Assembly: GCA_024696725.1 (NCBI GenBank)
Contig: JAILGO010000127.1
Coordinates: 1-14,701, forward strand
Source of the DNA: Eubacterium sp.
GTDB lineage: Bacteria; Bacillota; Clostridia; Oscillospirales; Acutalibacteraceae
Reading direction: 5' to 3'
Length of the DNA: 14,701 nucleotides
Shown: piece after piece, positions 7,475-14,502 of the stretch
Position numbering within the stretch: position 1 is the stretch's first letter
How the letters are laid out: each line of letters begins with the position of its first letter
Notes under the pieces: model-generated
What the model saw: only the letters and a program-made list of their open reading frames with translations
Databases searched by the model: none
Told to the model about the DNA's origin: nothing
Made by a program: the position numbers and the translations under genes

Positions 7475-7505
7475 AAAAAGACGGCTGATTATCAGCCGCC
7501 TCTTT
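7473..7505. terminator. Bidirectional intrinsic terminator between convergent genes
   Basis: A perfect stem CGGCTGA (7482-7488) / TCAGCCG (7492-7498) with loop TTA is flanked by A7 on the left and CTCTTTTT on the right, so it gives a hairpin plus T-tract in both directions. It serves the amidohydrolase (+) and the secreted protein gene (-). Confidence 0.85.
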
Positions 7506-8606
7506 TTATTTTATCTTAATCTTTTTCTTTGCGCTCCACGGGGTAAAGAGCTTTTCGCCCTCTCCCTGATTTACGTAAGCTCTTACCCTGAAGTAATATA
7601 CCTTGCCCGATTTGAGCTTTTTAATCGTTTTCTTAATATTCTTTTTGCCCTTGATTGTAACGGTTTTGGCTTTTTTGAATTTTTTGCTTGTGCTGTACTG
7701 AAGCTGATAGCCGTTAGCGTTAGTGATGTTCTTTGACCACTTAATGAAAGCGGTTCTTTTCTTTTTGCCCGTAAGGCTTGTAATGATGGGCGATATCGTC
7801 GTAGCGTTGCAGGGAACGTTACCCTCTATAAGAAGGCTTCCCTTCGTCGTGTAAGAGCTGAGCTTAACCGTACCGTTTTTCTTAACGTAAGCGTTCTTGC
7901 CTCTTATTTTCATTATTTTCGAGTTAGAACTCTTGTATACAACGTCGCTGTCTGCTAAATTAAATTTGCCGCTGTAAACGCCGTAGCCGGTAACCTTCAT
8001 CTTAAGGATATATTTTCCGTTTTTAACGCTTATGAAATCTATCGAGCCGCTCTTGAGATTTGTATATAAAACCTTTTCGTTTGAAGAAATTACCCTCGTC
8101 GTGAAATCCGTTTCAATCTCGCCTGCGGGAACGGTTGAAACGATAATATAAAGAGCCGTTTCGTTGTCGCAGGTAAACGCCGCGAGACCTATGCTTTTAA
8201 TATTTGTAACGGTTTTAAGCTCGTCTATTTCAGCCATGACCGAATCCCCGGATATTCCGCTGAGTCTTGAAACGCCGGGGAAACAGGTATTATTATACTC
8301 GGGAATAACGGTAGTGATTGCGCTTCCGTCGGGAAGGCTGAAGCTGTTATCGGTATAAAGAGCCGATTTAACGGCAAGAAGCCTCGCCGCCTCCATTAGC
8401 TCTTTATCGTATTCAAGTTTGTAAAGTGAGTTTTCTGCCCTGACGCCGTTGATTTCATCAAGAACGGTTTTGACTGTTTCGTTATTCTGCGTACCCGTAA
8501 CCGTGACCGTAACGAGCTCGCCCTCTGAAGCAAAAGCCGTAAAGCCGATGCCCGAAACCGAGAGTAAAAGAACAGCGGACAGTAAAACGGAAATAATTTT
8601 TTTCAT
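7506..8606 (-). CDS. Secreted CAP-like / Ig-like / fibronectin type III protein
   Basis: This is a predicted exported protein of 366 residues. It starts with a clear signal peptide (MKKIISVLLSAVLLLS..., likely cleavage after Ala26 in AFA|SE). Residues about 45-160 resemble a CAP/SCP domain (EINGVRAENSLYKLEYDKEL, then a late strand ALYIIVSTV). Residues about 190-265 look like a bacterial Ig-like domain (DVVYKSSNSKIMKIRG). Residues about 272-366 form an Fn3 domain (ITSLTGKKKRTAFIKWSK ... VYYFRVRAYV) that is very lysine-rich. ATG at 8606 is chosen over an upstream in-frame ATG (8678) because it has AAGGAG seven bases upstream, a signal peptide right after it, and a promoter that would lie inside the longer form. 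It has no sorting motif or transmembrane anchor. It is transcribed alone. Function unknown; surface or polymer binding is inferred. Confidence 0.85.
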   Translation of the reverse strand: MKKIISVLLSAVLLLSVSGIGFTAFASEGELVTVTVTGTQNNETVKTVLDEINGVRAENSLYKLEYDKELMEAARLLAVKSALYTDNSFSLPDGSAITTVIPEYNNTCFPGVSRLSGISGDSVMAEIDELKTVTNIKSIGLAAFTCDNETALYIIVSTVPAGEIETDFTTRVISSNEKVLYTNLKSGSIDFISVKNGKYILKMKVTGYGVYSGKFNLADSDVVYKSSNSKIMKIRGKNAYVKKNGTVKLSSYTTKGSLLIEGNVPCNATTISPIITSLTGKKKRTAFIKWSKNITNANGYQLQYSTSKKFKKAKTVTIKGKKNIKKTIKKLKSGKVYYFRVRAYVNQGEGEKLFTPWSAKKKIKIK

Positions 8607-8637
8607 ATTAATTCTCCTTAAAGATTTTATTAAAAAT

Positions 8638-8666
8638 ATGATACCACTGAACTGACTGTTTGTCAA
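8638..8666 (-). promoter_or_regulatory. Promoter of the secreted CAP/Fn3 protein gene
   Basis: Read on the - strand, TTGACA (8661-8666) is followed by a 17-base spacer and TATCAT (8638-8643), with the start codon about 30 bases downstream. The -35 box directly abuts the T-tract of the upstream terminator. Confidence 0.85.
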
Positions 8667-8698
8667 ATAAAAACGCACCGTTTAAAACGGTGCGTTTT
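8667..8698 (-). terminator. Intrinsic terminator after the iorAB-paaK-ACT genes
   Basis: A 9-bp stem, ACGCACCGT (8673-8681) with ACGGTGCGT (8687-8695), is extendable by A-T pairs on both sides. It lies ten bases after the ACT stop and, on the - strand, is followed by TTTTTATTT. It could also work on the + strand, but no + strand gene ends here. Confidence 0.88.
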
Positions 8699-8708
8699 CT
8701 GTATTCGT

Positions 8709-9143
8709 TTATTTAAGATAATCCGTAATATCCGAGTCGCTGAGCGTCTGGATACCGTTTCTCGCAAGAATCTGTTCCGCCTGCTCAACCTCGTCGACTC
8801 TCAGTACAACGTAAGCGTTGCCCGCTACGGCGCCCGTGAAGGCGTAAACGTATTCGATGTTAATGCCTGCCGCCGTAAGAGTATTGAGAATGTTGTTGAG
8901 CGCGCCCGCCTTGTCGTTCATTTTTACCGCGATGACGGGAGTCTCGCGCACGATAGTTTTATCGTCAAGCGCCGCCTTCGTCTTTTCGGTGTCCGAAACG
9001 ATAACTCTGAGAATACCGAAATCCTTTGTGTCCGCAACGCTGAGTGCGCGGATGTTTACGCCTGCGTCGGTAATTGCCGCTACCGCCTTACAGAGCGTGC
9101 CGGGAACGTTTTCAAGAAATGCGGATAATTGTGTAATAGCCAT
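8709..9143 (-). CDS. Tandem ACT-domain protein linked to PaaK/IOR
   Basis: This is a stand-alone cytoplasmic protein of 144 residues built from two ACT domains (about 3-66 and 69-140) and no catalytic domain. Each has the beta-alpha-beta entry with a Pro or Ala-Gly turn: ENVPGTLCKAVAAITDAGVN (11-30) and NDKAGALNNILNTLTAAGIN (76-95). ACT domains usually bind amino acids at domain interfaces. The gene is last in the iorA-iorB-paaK series, 14 bases after paaK with AAGGGGG upstream. ACT genes of this size often accompany paaK in anaerobes, so sensing an aromatic amino acid and adjusting ligase or IOR activity is plausible, but this is inference. The stop is followed at once by a strong terminator. 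Confidence 0.9.
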   Translation of the reverse strand: MAITQLSAFLENVPGTLCKAVAAITDAGVNIRALSVADTKDFGILRVIVSDTEKTKAALDDKTIVRETPVIAVKMNDKAGALNNILNTLTAAGINIEYVYAFTGAVAGNAYVVLRVDEVEQAEQILARNGIQTLSDSDITDYLK

Positions 9144-9157
9144 AATTCAGTCCCCCT

Positions 9158-10465
9158 TTAGTGAAGCTTTCTCTTGTCTATAACTCTGACCGCCTTGCCC
9201 TCTGAGCGCTCGATTGATTTCGGCGCAACAAGGTGAATCTTCGGGTTAATGCCTAACATAGCGCGCATTGCCTGAGCAAGCTCTCTCTCGCTCATCTGCA
9301 TTTCCGCAACCTTGTCCGAGAAGCGCTCGGGTGAGCACTCAACGTATATGTCGAAGGTGTCAGTGTTATTTACGCGGTCAACAACAATCTGATAGTTCGG
9401 CGTATAGCCTTCCTTAAGCAGAACTGTTTCAATCTGACTCGGGAATACGTTAACGCCGCGGATAATCATCATATCGTCGCTTCTTCCGAGCGGCTTGGTC
9501 ATTCTTACGTGCGTTCTGCCGCATTCGCATTTTTCTCTTGTTAAGATACAAATATCCTTCGTTCTGTAACGGAGGAGGGGGAAACCCTTCTTATCAAGCG
9601 AGGTGAAAACGAGCTCGCCTTTTTCGCCCTCGGGAAGAACCTCGCCCGTGTCGGGGTCGATAATTTCCGCATAGAAATGGTCCTCGTTAATGTGCATACC
9701 GTTTTGCATTTCACATTCGAACGCAACGCCGGGTCCCGAGGTTTCGGTAAGACCGTAAATATCGTAAGCCTTGATTCCGAGGCTCTTTTCGATTTCCTGA
9801 CGCATTTCCTCAGTCCACGGCTCAGCGCCGAAGATGCCCGCCTTGAGCTTGTTATCCTCGGGCTTGTAGCCCTGTTCTGCAAGCGATTCGCCTATATATG
9901 CGGCATAAGACGGTGTACAGCAGAGAATGGTAGAGCCTAAGTCCATCATAAACTGAATCTGTCTGTTTGTGTTACCCGACGACATCGGAAGCGTCATGCA
10001 TCCGACCTTCTGCGAGCCGCCGTTGAGTCCTGCGCCGCCGGTGAATAAGCCGTAGCCGTAGCATACCTGACATACGTCCTCGTTTGTTCCGCCTGCCGCT
10101 ACAACGGCTCTCGCGCAGCATTCCTCCCACATATCTATATCCTCTTTAGTGTAGAAGGCGACGACGCGCTTTCCCGTCGTACCCGAGGTCGACTGGATAC
10201 GTATAATGTCCTTTAAATCCGTACCGAGAAGTCCGTAGGGATAAGCGTCCCTTAAATCGTCCTTTGAAAGGAAGGGAAGCTTTTTGATATCGTCAAGCGA
10301 CCTGATATCCTCGGGCTTAACGCCCTTTTTGTCCATAAGGTTGCGGTAGTATTCAACGTTGTCGTATACGTACTTAACCTGCTTAACGAGCTTTTCGCTC
10401 TGAAGCTTTCTGATTTCTTCAACCGGCATCGTTTCGATTTCCGGCTGAAAATACCTCTTGTCCAT
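9158..10465 (-). CDS. paaK: Phenylacetate-CoA ligase family (aryl-acetate:CoA ligase, AMP-forming)
   Basis: PaaK-type enzymes join phenylacetate or a related aryl-acetate to CoA with ATP going to AMP and pyrophosphate. The 435-residue length is typical. The adenylate-forming motifs are complete: the phosphate loop STSGTTGK (92-99), YGLTET (237-242), RYRTKD (299-304), the hinge region GRSDDMMIIRGVNVFP (327-342), and the C-terminal Lys424 in SEGKAVRV. The start has AGGAGG nine bases upstream, 24 bases after iorB. Position between iorB and the ACT gene ties it to aryl-acetyl-CoA made or used by IOR. It could release free acid for energy or, in reverse, activate scavenged aryl-acetates for reductive carboxylation. 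Which aryl group it prefers is not visible. Confidence 0.93.
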   Translation of the reverse strand: MDKRYFQPEIETMPVEEIRKLQSEKLVKQVKYVYDNVEYYRNLMDKKGVKPEDIRSLDDIKKLPFLSKDDLRDAYPYGLLGTDLKDIIRIQSTSGTTGKRVVAFYTKEDIDMWEECCARAVVAAGGTNEDVCQVCYGYGLFTGGAGLNGGSQKVGCMTLPMSSGNTNRQIQFMMDLGSTILCCTPSYAAYIGESLAEQGYKPEDNKLKAGIFGAEPWTEEMRQEIEKSLGIKAYDIYGLTETSGPGVAFECEMQNGMHINEDHFYAEIIDPDTGEVLPEGEKGELVFTSLDKKGFPLLRYRTKDICILTREKCECGRTHVRMTKPLGRSDDMMIIRGVNVFPSQIETVLLKEGYTPNYQIVVDRVNNTDTFDIYVECSPERFSDKVAEMQMSERELAQAMRAMLGINPKIHLVAPKSIERSEGKAVRVIDKRKLH

Positions 10466-10489
10466 CTGTTTTTCCTCCTGTTTTATTTG

Positions 10490-11059
10490 TTATGAATTTC
10501 TGCCGAGAGAGAACGCTTTTTTATTAAGCTCGAGGAACTTCGGCGGAACGCATTTTTCAAGCGCGTCGAGCCACTGCTCCTCGGTGAAATCAAATTTCTT
10601 TGAAAGCTTACCTAAAAGCGCAATGTTAACCGCCTTCGACGAGCCTGCCTCGTTAGCGAGAGCGAGCGCGTCGAACGCCTCAACCTCAGCACCTGCCGCT
10701 TTCATCTTTTCGACGAGCTGTTCGGGATATGCCGCACTTCCCGTAATAACAGGCATGGGGTCAATCTGCTGAGTGTTAACTACAATATGTCCGTGAGGCT
10801 TGAGATACTCTGCGTATCTTGCCGCCTCAAGAAGCTCAAATGAAACGATATAATCCGCTTCTCCCTTGTCGATAACGGGGGAGTAAACCTTTTCGCCGAA
10901 GCGTACATAGGTAACGACGGAGCCGCCTCTCTGGCTCATTCCGTGTACCTCCGAAACCTTAACGTCGTAGCCTGCGGTAAGGAGAATCTGTCCGAGCAGC
11001 TTGCTTGCGAGAAGCGAGCCCTGACCGCCAACGCCGACAATCATAATATTCTTTGTCAT
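10490..11059 (-). CDS. iorB: Indolepyruvate:ferredoxin oxidoreductase beta subunit
   Basis: IorB is the small subunit of the cytoplasmic IOR complex, which oxidises aryl-pyruvates to aryl-acetyl-CoA and CO2 and reduces ferredoxin, reversibly. The 189-residue product has the 2-oxoacid oxidoreductase gamma-domain marks GVGGQG (9-14) and SEVHGMSQRGGSVV (36-49). The ATG at 11059 is chosen because AAGGAGGG precedes it and the conserved TKNIMIVGVGGQG follows; an in-frame ATG at 11140 would run into the end of iorA. It starts 13 bases after iorA and precedes paaK by 24 bases, so the genes look co-transcribed. The protein is intact even though its partner iorA carries an in-frame stop. Confidence 0.94.
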   Translation of the reverse strand: MTKNIMIVGVGGQGSLLASKLLGQILLTAGYDVKVSEVHGMSQRGGSVVTYVRFGEKVYSPVIDKGEADYIVSFELLEAARYAEYLKPHGHIVVNTQQIDPMPVITGSAAYPEQLVEKMKAAGAEVEAFDALALANEAGSSKAVNIALLGKLSKKFDFTEEQWLDALEKCVPPKFLELNKKAFSLGRNS

Positions 11060-11072
11060 AGTCAGTCCCTCC

Positions 11073-12794
11073 TTAGTTAAGCGCGTCGAAATGACACAGC
11101 TGCTGACATACTCCGCAGCCCGTGCAGAGCGTCGGGTCAATATGAGCCTTGCCGTCGCGGAAGCTTATTGACGGACAGCCGAGTTTCATACATGACTTAC
11201 AGCCTACGCACTTGTCGGTGTCTGCCTTTATAGGCGGATTTGTTTTAACGTATTTAAGAAGAACGCAGGGACGGCGAGAGATGATAACCGAGGGCTCGTT
11301 TGCCTTAAGCTCCTCTTTAACCGCCTCGTCGGTAGCCTTTAAATCGTAGGGGTCGACAATGCGTACTCTGTTGAAGCCCATAGCCTTACAGAGCGCCTCA
11401 AGGTCGATTTTACCCGCAGGGTCGCCCTTGATGTTGTAGCCCGTCGTCGGGTTCTGCTGATGTCCCGTCATACCCGTAATCGAGTTGTCGAGTATGATAA
11501 CGGTTGAGTTGCTCTGATTGTAAGCAATATTCGCAAGTCCCGTCATACCCGAGTGCATAAACGTCGAGTCGCCGATAACCGCTACCGTGCTGCCCTCAGC
11601 CTCTTCGCCGAGCGCCTTGTTAAAGCCGTGTACGGACGAAACGGACGCGCCCATACAAAGCGTCATGTGCATAGCTGAAAGCGGCGCGACGGCGCCGAGC
11701 GTGTAGCATCCGATATCGCCGAGAACGGTGCATTTATTCTTGTTAAGCGTATAGAAGAGTCCTCTGTGCGGACAGCCCGAGCACATTGCGGGCGGACGCA
11801 TCGGAAGCTCGTCAATCGCCTTACAGCTTTCCTTTTCGGGAACGCCGAGCTTTTCTGCGATAAGGTTCTGTGAGAATTCGCCGATAATCGGGAATATGTC
11901 CTTGCCTTCAACCTTTAAGCCGAGCGCTCTGCAGTGATTTTCAATAATCGGGTCGAGCTCCTCGATAACGACGAGTCTGTCGACCTTGGAAGCAAAATCC
12001 TTAATAAGCTTTACGGGAAGGGGATTGACCATACCGAGCTTAAGTACGCTTGCGCTGTCGCCGAATACCTCTTTAGCGTAAAGATAACTCGTCGAGCAGG
12101 TGATAATACCGAGCTCGGTGCCGCCCATTTCAATGCGGTTTACGTCGCTCGTTTCAGCCCATTCGCGGAGCTTTTCGGTGCGCTCCTCAACGAACGGGTG
12201 ACGCTTTTTAGCGTTACCGGGCATCATAACGTATTTCGCGATATTGCGCTCGTAGGGCTTTGAAACCTCAACGCGCTCGCCTTTTTCTACGATACTCTGA
12301 CAGTGGGAAACGCGCGTGCACATCTTAACGATAACGGGCGTGTCGAATTTCTCGCTTAAATCGAAAGCGAGCTTTGTAAAACGGAGAGCCTCGTCGCTGT
12401 CGGACGGCTCAAGCATGGGAACCTTAGACGCGATTGCGTGGTGACGGCTGTCCTGCTCGTTCTGAGACGAGTGCATTCCTGCGTCGTCGGCAACTGCGAT
12501 AACCATGCCCGCGTTTACGCCGGTATAAGAAGCCGTGTAAAGCGGGTCTGCGGCGACGTTAAGACCTACGTGCTTCATACCGCAGAAGCTTCTTTTTCCC
12601 GCCATAGCCGCGCCGAAAGCAACCTCCATGGCAACCTTCGCGTTAGGCGCTCATTCGCAGTATATTTCGTCGTATTTTGCAGCCTCCTCGGTAATCTCCG
12701 TCGAGGGAGTACCGGGATAGCTTGAAGCAACAGAGCAGCCCGCCTCGTAAAGTCCGCGGGCGAACGCCTTGTTGCCGAGCATTAATTCTTTCAT
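11073..12794 (-). CDS. iorA: Indolepyruvate:ferredoxin oxidoreductase alpha subunit, interrupted by in-frame UGA at codon 48
   Basis: IorA is the large catalytic subunit, binding thiamine diphosphate and Fe-S clusters. Read from ATG 12794 (GAGG ribosome binding site 8 bases upstream) it has 573 codons, near the usual length. The start matches the family: GNKAFARGLYEAGC (7-20), SSYPGTPSTEIT (24-35). Codon 48 is TGA (12653-12651), where relatives have Trp in EWAPNEK. The frame then stays open with every later motif: MKHVGLNVAADP, CSGCPHRG, the ThDP motif GDSTF...DNS (408 to about 438), and two C-terminal clusters with Cys529/532/535/540 and Cys557/560/563/567. Codon 52 is Ala where Glu is expected. 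Readings include a fresh nonsense mutation or sequencing error, UGA readthrough, or restart at the ATG at 12629 (weak AAGG upstream), which would drop 55 residues of the pyrimidine-binding domain. Homology is secure, function in doubt. Confidence 0.9.
12610..12650 (-). other. Possible RNA hairpin directly after the iorA UGA
   Basis: In the mRNA, GCGCC immediately after the UGA can pair with GGCGC 31 bases later. Inside, AA/UU and GCGA/UUGC can pair after single mismatches, leaving a 15-base loop AGGUUGCCAUGGAGG. The layout recalls a bacterial selenocysteine insertion element, but the loop begins only 13 bases after the UGA and is large, so the match is poor. It may be chance in coding sequence. 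Confidence 0.25.
12651..12653 (-). other. In-frame UGA codon inside iorA
   Basis: The - strand codons read TAC TGC GAA TGA GCG CCT AAC GCG AAG. The frame before (47 codons from the ATG) and after (525 sense codons) both match IorA, with no insertion or deletion. A single G-to-A change from the expected Trp codon TGG explains it. Confidence 0.95.
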
Positions 12795-12864: not shown

Positions 12865-14502
12865 TTACGATTCGTTTTCCTTTGCAACAAGGTTTTCAAC
12901 GCAGTACATCCTGCGGAGCGTCGGCTTCTCGATTTTACCCGTAGGATTTCTCGGGATGTCGGCGAATATAATCTTTCTCGGCCTTTTGTATCTCGCCATA
13001 CCGAGACAGAATTCGTTAACCTCGTCCTCTGTGAGCGTAAAGCCCTCCTTAACCTCGATAATCGCCGCCGAGATTTCGCCGAGACGGGAGTCGGGCATAC
13101 CGATAACCGCGACGTCCTTAATCTGATTCATTTTTCTTAAGAAGTCCTCAATCTGTACCGGATAGATATTCTCGCCGCCGCTTATGATAACGTCCTTTTT
13201 TCTGTCAACGAGGAAGATAAAGCCGTCCTCGTCCTCTTTAGCCATATCGCCCGTAAAGAGCCATCCGTCCTTAAGGCATTCTTTAGTAGCCTCTTCGTTT
13301 CTGTAATAGCAGGTCATAACGCCGGGACCCTTAACGCAGAGCTCGCCGATTTCACCGCGCGCAACCGTGTTACCCTCTGTGTCTACTATTTTAGTCTCCC
13401 AGCCATAGCCCGCCTTGCCGATAGCTCCGACCTTGTGAGTGTTCTCGATTCCGAGGTGTACGCAGCCGGGACCGATGCTTTCGGAAAGACCGTAGTTGGT
13501 GTCGTAATCGTGGTTCGGGAATACGCTCTTCCAGCGCTTGATAAGACTCGGCGGAACGGGCTGAGCGCCTATGTGCATAAGTCTCCAGCACGATAAATCG
13601 TATTTTGAAAGGTCGATTTTTCCGCTGTCGATATCGTCGAGAATATCCTGCGCCCACGGAACGAGAAGCCATACTATCGTACAGCGCTCGTTATGTACCG
13701 CCTGAATAACGTATTCGGGCTTCGTTCCTTTAGGAAGCACGGCCTTTCCGACCGATACGAGCGAGCCGAACCAGTGCATTTTTGCGCCGGTATGGTAGAG
13801 CGGGGGAATACAGAGAAATACGTCGCCGTGAGTCTGACCGTGGTGCGCCTGCTCGCATTTCGCCGAGTGCATAAGGCTCTCGTGATTATGTAAAATCGCC
13901 TTCGGGAAGCCCGTCGTACCCGACGAGAAGTATATCGCCGCGTTGTCGCTGTCGGTAATTTCTATATTCGGGTTTGAATCGTCAGCGTTTGCGGTCAGTT
14001 CAAAGTAACTCTCCGCAAAGGTCGGACAGGTGCCTTCACCCGCGTAAATAAGCGCGCATTTTCTTGAAAGCTTGTCCGCAATCGGCTCAATTCTTCCGAT
14101 AAAAGCGGAGCCGAACACCATTACGTCAACCTCAGCAAGCTCGGCGCAGTAGTCGATTTCGTCGGTGTCGTATCTGAAATTGAACGGAACGGCAATCGCG
14201 CCGGTCTTAAGCACTCCGAAGTAAATCGGAAGCCATTCTATGCAGTTCATCATAAGAATAGCAACCTTTTTGCCTTTTCCTATGCCTCTGCCGAGGAGAG
14301 CGTTCGCGAAGCGGTTAGCCTTCTCGTTAAAAATTTTCCAGGTTATTTCAAGCCTGTACGCTGAGGTGTGCTTAGGCTCTGTAAGGGAATACTCCTTCCA
14401 GGTAACGTAACGTTTTTCCTCAATCTCGGGATTAAGCTCTACAAGACATACCTCGTCGCAGTAAAGCTCGCTGTTTTTTTCAAGATAATCGGTAATAGGC
14501 AT
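12865..14502 (-). CDS. AMP-dependent acyl-CoA synthetase/ligase (FadD/CaiC-like)
   Basis: This cytoplasmic adenylate-forming ligase of 545 residues attaches a carboxylic acid to CoA. Motifs in order: the phosphate loop FSSGTTGFPKA (192-202), NYGLSES (336-342), GWLFTGD (413-419), the hinge segment DRKKDVIISGGENIYP (433-448), and the catalytic Lys523 in NPTGKIEKP. The start has AAAGGAGG eight bases upstream. It has a strong promoter with the same tandem operator-like element as the symporter operon, and it precedes iorA by 70 bases on the same strand. A role in activating an imported or amino-acid-derived acid is inferred. The acid could be aromatic, branched-chain or medium-chain; the sequence alone does not say. 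Nothing is broken. Confidence 0.9.
   Translation of the reverse strand: MPITDYLEKNSELYCDEVCLVELNPEIEEKRYVTWKEYSLTEPKHTSAYRLEITWKIFNEKANRFANALLGRGIGKGKKVAILMMNCIEWLPIYFGVLKTGAIAVPFNFRYDTDEIDYCAELAEVDVMVFGSAFIGRIEPIADKLSRKCALIYAGEGTCPTFAESYFELTANADDSNPNIEITDSDNAAIYFSSGTTGFPKAILHNHESLMHSAKCEQAHHGQTHGDVFLCIPPLYHTGAKMHWFGSLVSVGKAVLPKGTKPEYVIQAVHNERCTIVWLLVPWAQDILDDIDSGKIDLSKYDLSCWRLMHIGAQPVPPSLIKRWKSVFPNHDYDTNYGLSESIGPGCVHLGIENTHKVGAIGKAGYGWETKIVDTEGNTVARGEIGELCVKGPGVMTCYYRNEEATKECLKDGWLFTGDMAKEDEDGFIFLVDRKKDVIISGGENIYPVQIEDFLRKMNQIKDVAVIGMPDSRLGEISAAIIEVKEGFTLTEDEVNEFCLGMARYKRPRKIIFADIPRNPTGKIEKPTLRRMYCVENLVAKENES

Follow-up and report, generated by a model that had tools for sequence, protein, structure and literature searches.

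Two neighbouring lesions in one motif of a Eubacterium sp. iorA gene: probably an error in the local sequence or a mutation of very recent date

Introduction

The product of iorA, the alpha subunit of indolepyruvate ferredoxin oxidoreductase (IOR), is an enzyme of aromatic amino acid breakdown. On a contig of 14,701 nucleotides from a Eubacterium sp. genome (JAILGO010000127.1; the whole stretch is called the window here), the iorA frame carries a stop codon close to its start; the question is whether this stop is decoded, bypassed by an internal start, the mark of a gene that has recently died, or an error of the assembled sequence. The window is contig 57 of a 195-contig, 1.82-Mb assembly that is 93% complete. 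A literature search found no report that brings together iorA, indolepyruvate ferredoxin oxidoreductase and a stop codon, and nothing that combined metagenome-assembled genomes, premature stop codons, sequencing errors and pseudogenes.

Materials and Methods

The iorA frame was compared with 211 relatives among the matches listed, namely 92 DNA loci (12 from the same genus and the best 80 of 595 confirmed candidates in a genome collection) and 119 proteins (the best 120 of 7,999 scored, from which the window's own protein was taken out); the two sets may share sources. The listing of homologous proteins consists of cluster representatives, and hence the nearest among the matches listed is 94% identical. 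Genome searches used one genome per species; a phage collection was also searched and gave no match. The iorB query began two codons before the ATG, at 11065, and the scan against NF005325 started from 11140. Feature coordinates are collected in Table 1.

Table 1. Features of the iorA region, with positions in the window.
Feature	Position	Strand	Observation
iorA, indolepyruvate ferredoxin oxidoreductase alpha subunit	11073..12794	minus	573-codon frame with a final stop, broken at codon 48
iorA codon 48, TGA where relatives have Trp	12651..12653	minus	comparison with 211 relatives among the matches listed
iorA codon 52, GCG (Ala) where relatives have Glu	12639..12641	minus	211 relatives and alignment to 5b46_A
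Internal 518-aa frame from ATG codon 56	11073..12629	minus	starts past both lesions, lacks the first 55 residues
iorB, beta subunit	10490..11059	minus	frame intact, ATG at 11059; NF005325 276.6 bits, above the cut-off of 230
paaK-like arylacetate-CoA ligase	9158..10465	minus	frame intact; TIGR02155 523.1 bits, below the cut-off of 646.3
ACT-domain protein	8709..9143	minus	frame intact; PF19571 ACT domain pair
Upstream acyl-CoA ligase (acs)	12865..14502	minus	frame intact; PF00501 and PF13193; NF004837 409.1 bits, below the cut-off of 476

Results

Identity and Interruption of the iorA Frame

The 518-residue part alone scored 628.6 bits against TIGR03336 (cut-off 650.9), covered positions 59–595 of the 595 in this profile, and contained the POR_N, TPP_enzyme_C and Fer4 (4Fe-4S) domains in order; the full frame is 94% identical to that of the nearest congener, and iorB lies adjacent. 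In these domains, this congener identity and this neighbour the gene resembles IorA (TIGR03336); it differs from its relatives in the stop at codon 48 and the alanine at residue 52, neither of which occurs in the 211 listed. One iorA was found in the assembly; a single further match covers 50 residues at the ferredoxin-like end.

Translation of the assembled sequence from 12794 to 11073 gave, in place of the uninterrupted frame of an IorA, a single in-frame TGA at codon 48 (12653–12651). This codon is TGG in 92 of the 92 DNA loci compared and tryptophan in all 119 database proteins, that is, in 211 of 211 relatives, all among the matches listed. The preliminary description was right to call the gene iorA; it had placed a UGA at a tryptophan codon of the family, in a frame of 573 codons, and this was borne out; its further statement that the UGA replaces the tryptophan of an EWAPNEK-like motif stood for the tryptophan but not for the motif, which in the window reads E-stop-APNAK.

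A Second Lesion at Codon 52

The view that the rest of iorA is intact and lacks further damage had to be given up: the window encodes alanine (GCG) at residue 52, where 211 of the 211 relatives listed have glutamate. Codons 48 and 52 are the sole positions, two in 573, with a residue unseen among these relatives. The changed bases, 12640 and 12651, lie 11 bases apart and the codons four apart; since two random hits among 573 codons would fall no more than four codons apart with a probability of 0.014, the natural reading is that both changes arose in one local event. At sites where at least 99% of homologs share one residue, the window iorA shows two radical departures; when the 25 top-scoring iorA proteins were each left out in turn, the mean was 0.16 and none exceeded 1.

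The position of the second lesion was placed by alignment to solved structures. In a profile of 18 IorA proteins from the 120 listed, Glu52 falls on the second glutamate of the EDE motif in 1yd7, with no gap through the motif; alignment of the single sequence to 1yd7 gave the same register, but with a one-residue gap just before Glu52 and low local confidence. When the 1yd7 segment was aligned to 5b46, the glutamate column corresponded to chain position 294 (5b46_A). A passage of PMC5020499 describes Glu294a of the Sulfolobus 2-oxoacid oxidoreductase StOFOR1 as contacting N1' of thiamine pyrophosphate (TPP). Judged by these alignments, the residue-52 column is expected to hold the cofactor-activating glutamate at TPP N1', and the window has alanine at this conserved glutamate of the EWAPNEK motif. 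Among solved 2-oxoacid:ferredoxin oxidoreductases, all five chains compared (1yd7, 8ys5, 6n2n, 5b46, 5b48) have glutamate in this column, in contrast to the alanine of the window; no chain named as IorA was found among the best 60 of 73 solved chains matching IorA.

Operon Neighbours and Distribution in the Genus

iorB, the paaK-like gene and the ACT gene had been said to look healthy, and all three frames are indeed intact; iorB shows no residue unseen among 85 homologs. The operon (window 8709–12794) is patchy in the genus, with iorA in 13 of 80 genomes (own included), iorB in 12 and paaK in nine, and is dispensable there. Each of the 12 genomes with iorB also has iorA, and no iorB match occurs without iorA; in G045, the sole genome where iorA was matched and iorB was not, iorA extends up to the contig end. 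None of the 12 congeners carrying iorA has an internal stop in it, the G045 copy being cut by the contig end. The protein at 7506–8678 has a weak fibronectin type III match and, by eye, a signal-like start; for its part near 7500–7780 there are matches at many sites in congeners and at two further sites in its own genome.

Constraint and Private Changes

Ratios of private nonsynonymous to synonymous codons over five operon genes were 63:186 in the window, of which iorA contributed 19:57, and 33:154, 34:116, 56:177, 92:208, 34:161 and 55:151 in six congeners; there is no sign of long decay in the operon. With the set of relatives used for the residue comparison, the iorA ratio was 16:40, against 4:24, 2:27, 11:28, 13:42 and 6:65 in five congeners, and the window thus lies at the top of the range. 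First- and second-position private changes in iorA codons 61–573 came to 2.15 per 100 codons vs. 0.35–1.40 in four controls; sss, a gene outside the operon, was also raised (2.49 private position-1/2 changes per 100 codons), and a long branch thus explains the iorA rate as well as decay or mild relaxation would. Over the remainder of the gene, constraint is at the top of the range that congeners show; the damage therefore has the appearance of a single local event at the branch tip, and the earlier judgement that the lesion is either very recent or an error is upheld.

Error Checks Across Contig and Genome

Neither sss (270 sites, 118 homologs) nor infB (257 sites, 29 homologs) departs from its homologs at any 99% site; with iorB likewise clean, the deeply tested genes give no sign that the contig has a general problem with errors. 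In acs, nine residues were unseen in 120 homologs among the matches listed, including the otherwise unanimous sites 51, 251 and 257; four of them (51, 175, 251, 257) fall at sites at least 99% conserved, three being radical (leave-one-out mean 0.04, maximum 1). These departures were dropped as evidence of sequence errors, as two distant relatives of solved structure, 3r44 and 8r2q, have similar residues at 251 and 257 when read by hand; 3r44 is also similar to the window at 51, and the 8r2q match starts at 52. Private position-1/2 changes in acs are concentrated in the half toward the contig end (13 in 270 codons vs. two in 275; Fisher p 0.003), and an error gradient toward the contig end was considered and dropped, since five of seven congeners also have more changes in that half. 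Protein searches for other strains with acs and sss brought no gain; the sss listing returned the window's own protein under two starts.

At shallow depth (7 to 15 congener loci per gene), the private changes at sites invariant among congeners numbered 0 to 8 in each of 13 genes, the counts for the ACT gene and paaK being too low because their sets included the window's own copy; with four such changes iorA does not stand out at this depth, and it is the deep sets that make it do so. A lesion-rate sample, small in that it covered 20 of the 195 contigs (one cut at 20 kb) and the window, 181,841 bases in all, against partial stretches of two congeners, matched 42 genes to G006 and 21 to G042. 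Its internal stops were that of iorA, both times, and one that falls on the last residue but one in a match of 349 residues; two further stops, in matches of 100 and 92 residues, involve short frames regarded as spurious. The reverse comparison showed four stops in G006, close to where two matches begin, and none in G042.

Another congener, G047, has breaks of its own. Its infB fragment shows a frame break near residue 35 (L117); infB is expected to be essential, and an internal stop in infB occurs in one of 78 genomes with a match. In the iorB of the same genome (contig 59), a 38-base gap breaks the frame (L265 4327–4861; L010 972–1486). Both breaks may be, and probably are, assembly artefacts.

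Discussion

The iorA copy as written would be dead: what is probably a single local patch (12640–12651) alters two residues of the TPP-binding motif that are invariant among the relatives listed, and would make iorA a null allele in the assembled sequence; the frames of the neighbouring operon genes are unaffected. The damage is probably not new biology but either a local error in the sequence or a mutation of very recent date.

The patch may be technical in origin, either an error of the consensus or a piece of a minority strain in an assembly that is fragmented; we give this reading a probability of about 0.52, slightly likelier than a true recent null allele. The fragmented assembly, the clustering of the lesions, the intact surrounding frames and the absence of any iorB match without iorA point toward an artefact. 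The probable frame-breaking artefacts in G047 indicate that such errors occur in this genome set and lend support to a technical origin of the iorA patch. Against a technical origin, random errors seldom survive assembly at ordinary depth, and the rest of the contig looks clean.

A true and very recent null allele is a serious contender, held at somewhat less than even odds. It would have arisen by a clustered multi-base mutation or by two hits in quick succession and would have abolished IOR in this strain, with iorB, paaK and the ACT gene not yet decayed. Both changes are present in the assembled sequence, the deeply tested genes reveal no general error problem on the contig, iorA constraint lies at the upper edge of the congener range, and loss is plausible for an operon so patchy that only 13 of 80 genus genomes have iorA. 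Against it, two independent hits would fall so close together only 1.4% of the time, and no standing broken iorA was seen among the other 12 congeners with iorA (the G045 copy being cut by the contig end). A template switch or gene conversion was rejected as the source, since the 13-base and 12-base patches around the lesions occur nowhere else in the assembly and so have no template there; this, too, weighs against a true allele.

That the UGA is read through as tryptophan or recoded, with full-length IorA as the product, is very improbable. The frame is open on either side of the TGA, which stands exactly where the family has tryptophan; however, the release factor RF2 is present (527.2 bits, cut-off 370), no SelB for selenocysteine insertion scored above the cut-off in the 93% complete genome (best 192.9 vs. 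242.25 bits), and the tRNA-Trp found has the anticodon CCA, with no UCA anticodon among the tRNAs listed, a list drawn from the loci of 26 hits that is incomplete and lacks tRNAs for Leu, Ile, Phe and Cys. TGA terminates the three neighbours infB, nrnA and ribF, and the 14 window genes counted contain 33 TGG codons and no other in-frame TGA. The preliminary description had argued from TGG usage elsewhere and from these three TGA ends that code reassignment is unlikely, and on both counts the present data agree. Moreover, a readthrough product would still carry alanine where the alignment places the TPP glutamate.

Slighter still is the chance that the 518-residue protein starting at 12629 is a functional short IorA. 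The frame is present in the reading-frame list, as previously stated, with an ATG at codon 56 and an AAGG that ends five bases upstream; but the same AAGG and ATG are found as plain coding sequence in nine of 12 congeners, the 119 relatives among the matches listed all have 573 to 593 residues, and the short form would be without residues 1–55, including the YPGTPSTE segment and the position of the TPP glutamate. Because neither product would carry the activating glutamate, rescue by readthrough or by the internal start, which had been offered as ways of tolerating the lesion, is very unlikely, and IOR activity from either product is unlikely. Least probable of all, to the point of being negligible, is a strain-specific IOR that decodes the UGA and dispenses with the TPP glutamate, as an altered enzyme or a regulated switch. 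Glyoxylate carboligase is a thiamine enzyme without the canonical glutamate, according to a title in the reference list of PMC5020499, and alanine at residue 52 is thus not absolutely impossible.

Young pseudogenes and consensus lesions occur in metagenome-assembled genomes, and the window iorA resembles them in having a local lesion within an otherwise conserved gene, comparable to the frameshifted infB and the gapped iorB of G047; it differs in that two substitutions in one motif, not an indel, make up the lesion.

As a caveat for similar cases, when an assembled genome shows an isolated in-frame stop, stories of recoding or readthrough are tempting; here, the deep comparison residue by residue exposed an adjacent second lesion, which makes such stories very unlikely. 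If the allele is true, the strain would probably be unable to oxidise arylpyruvates by IOR despite an operon that looks healthy, and pathway calls based on gene presence alone would mislead.
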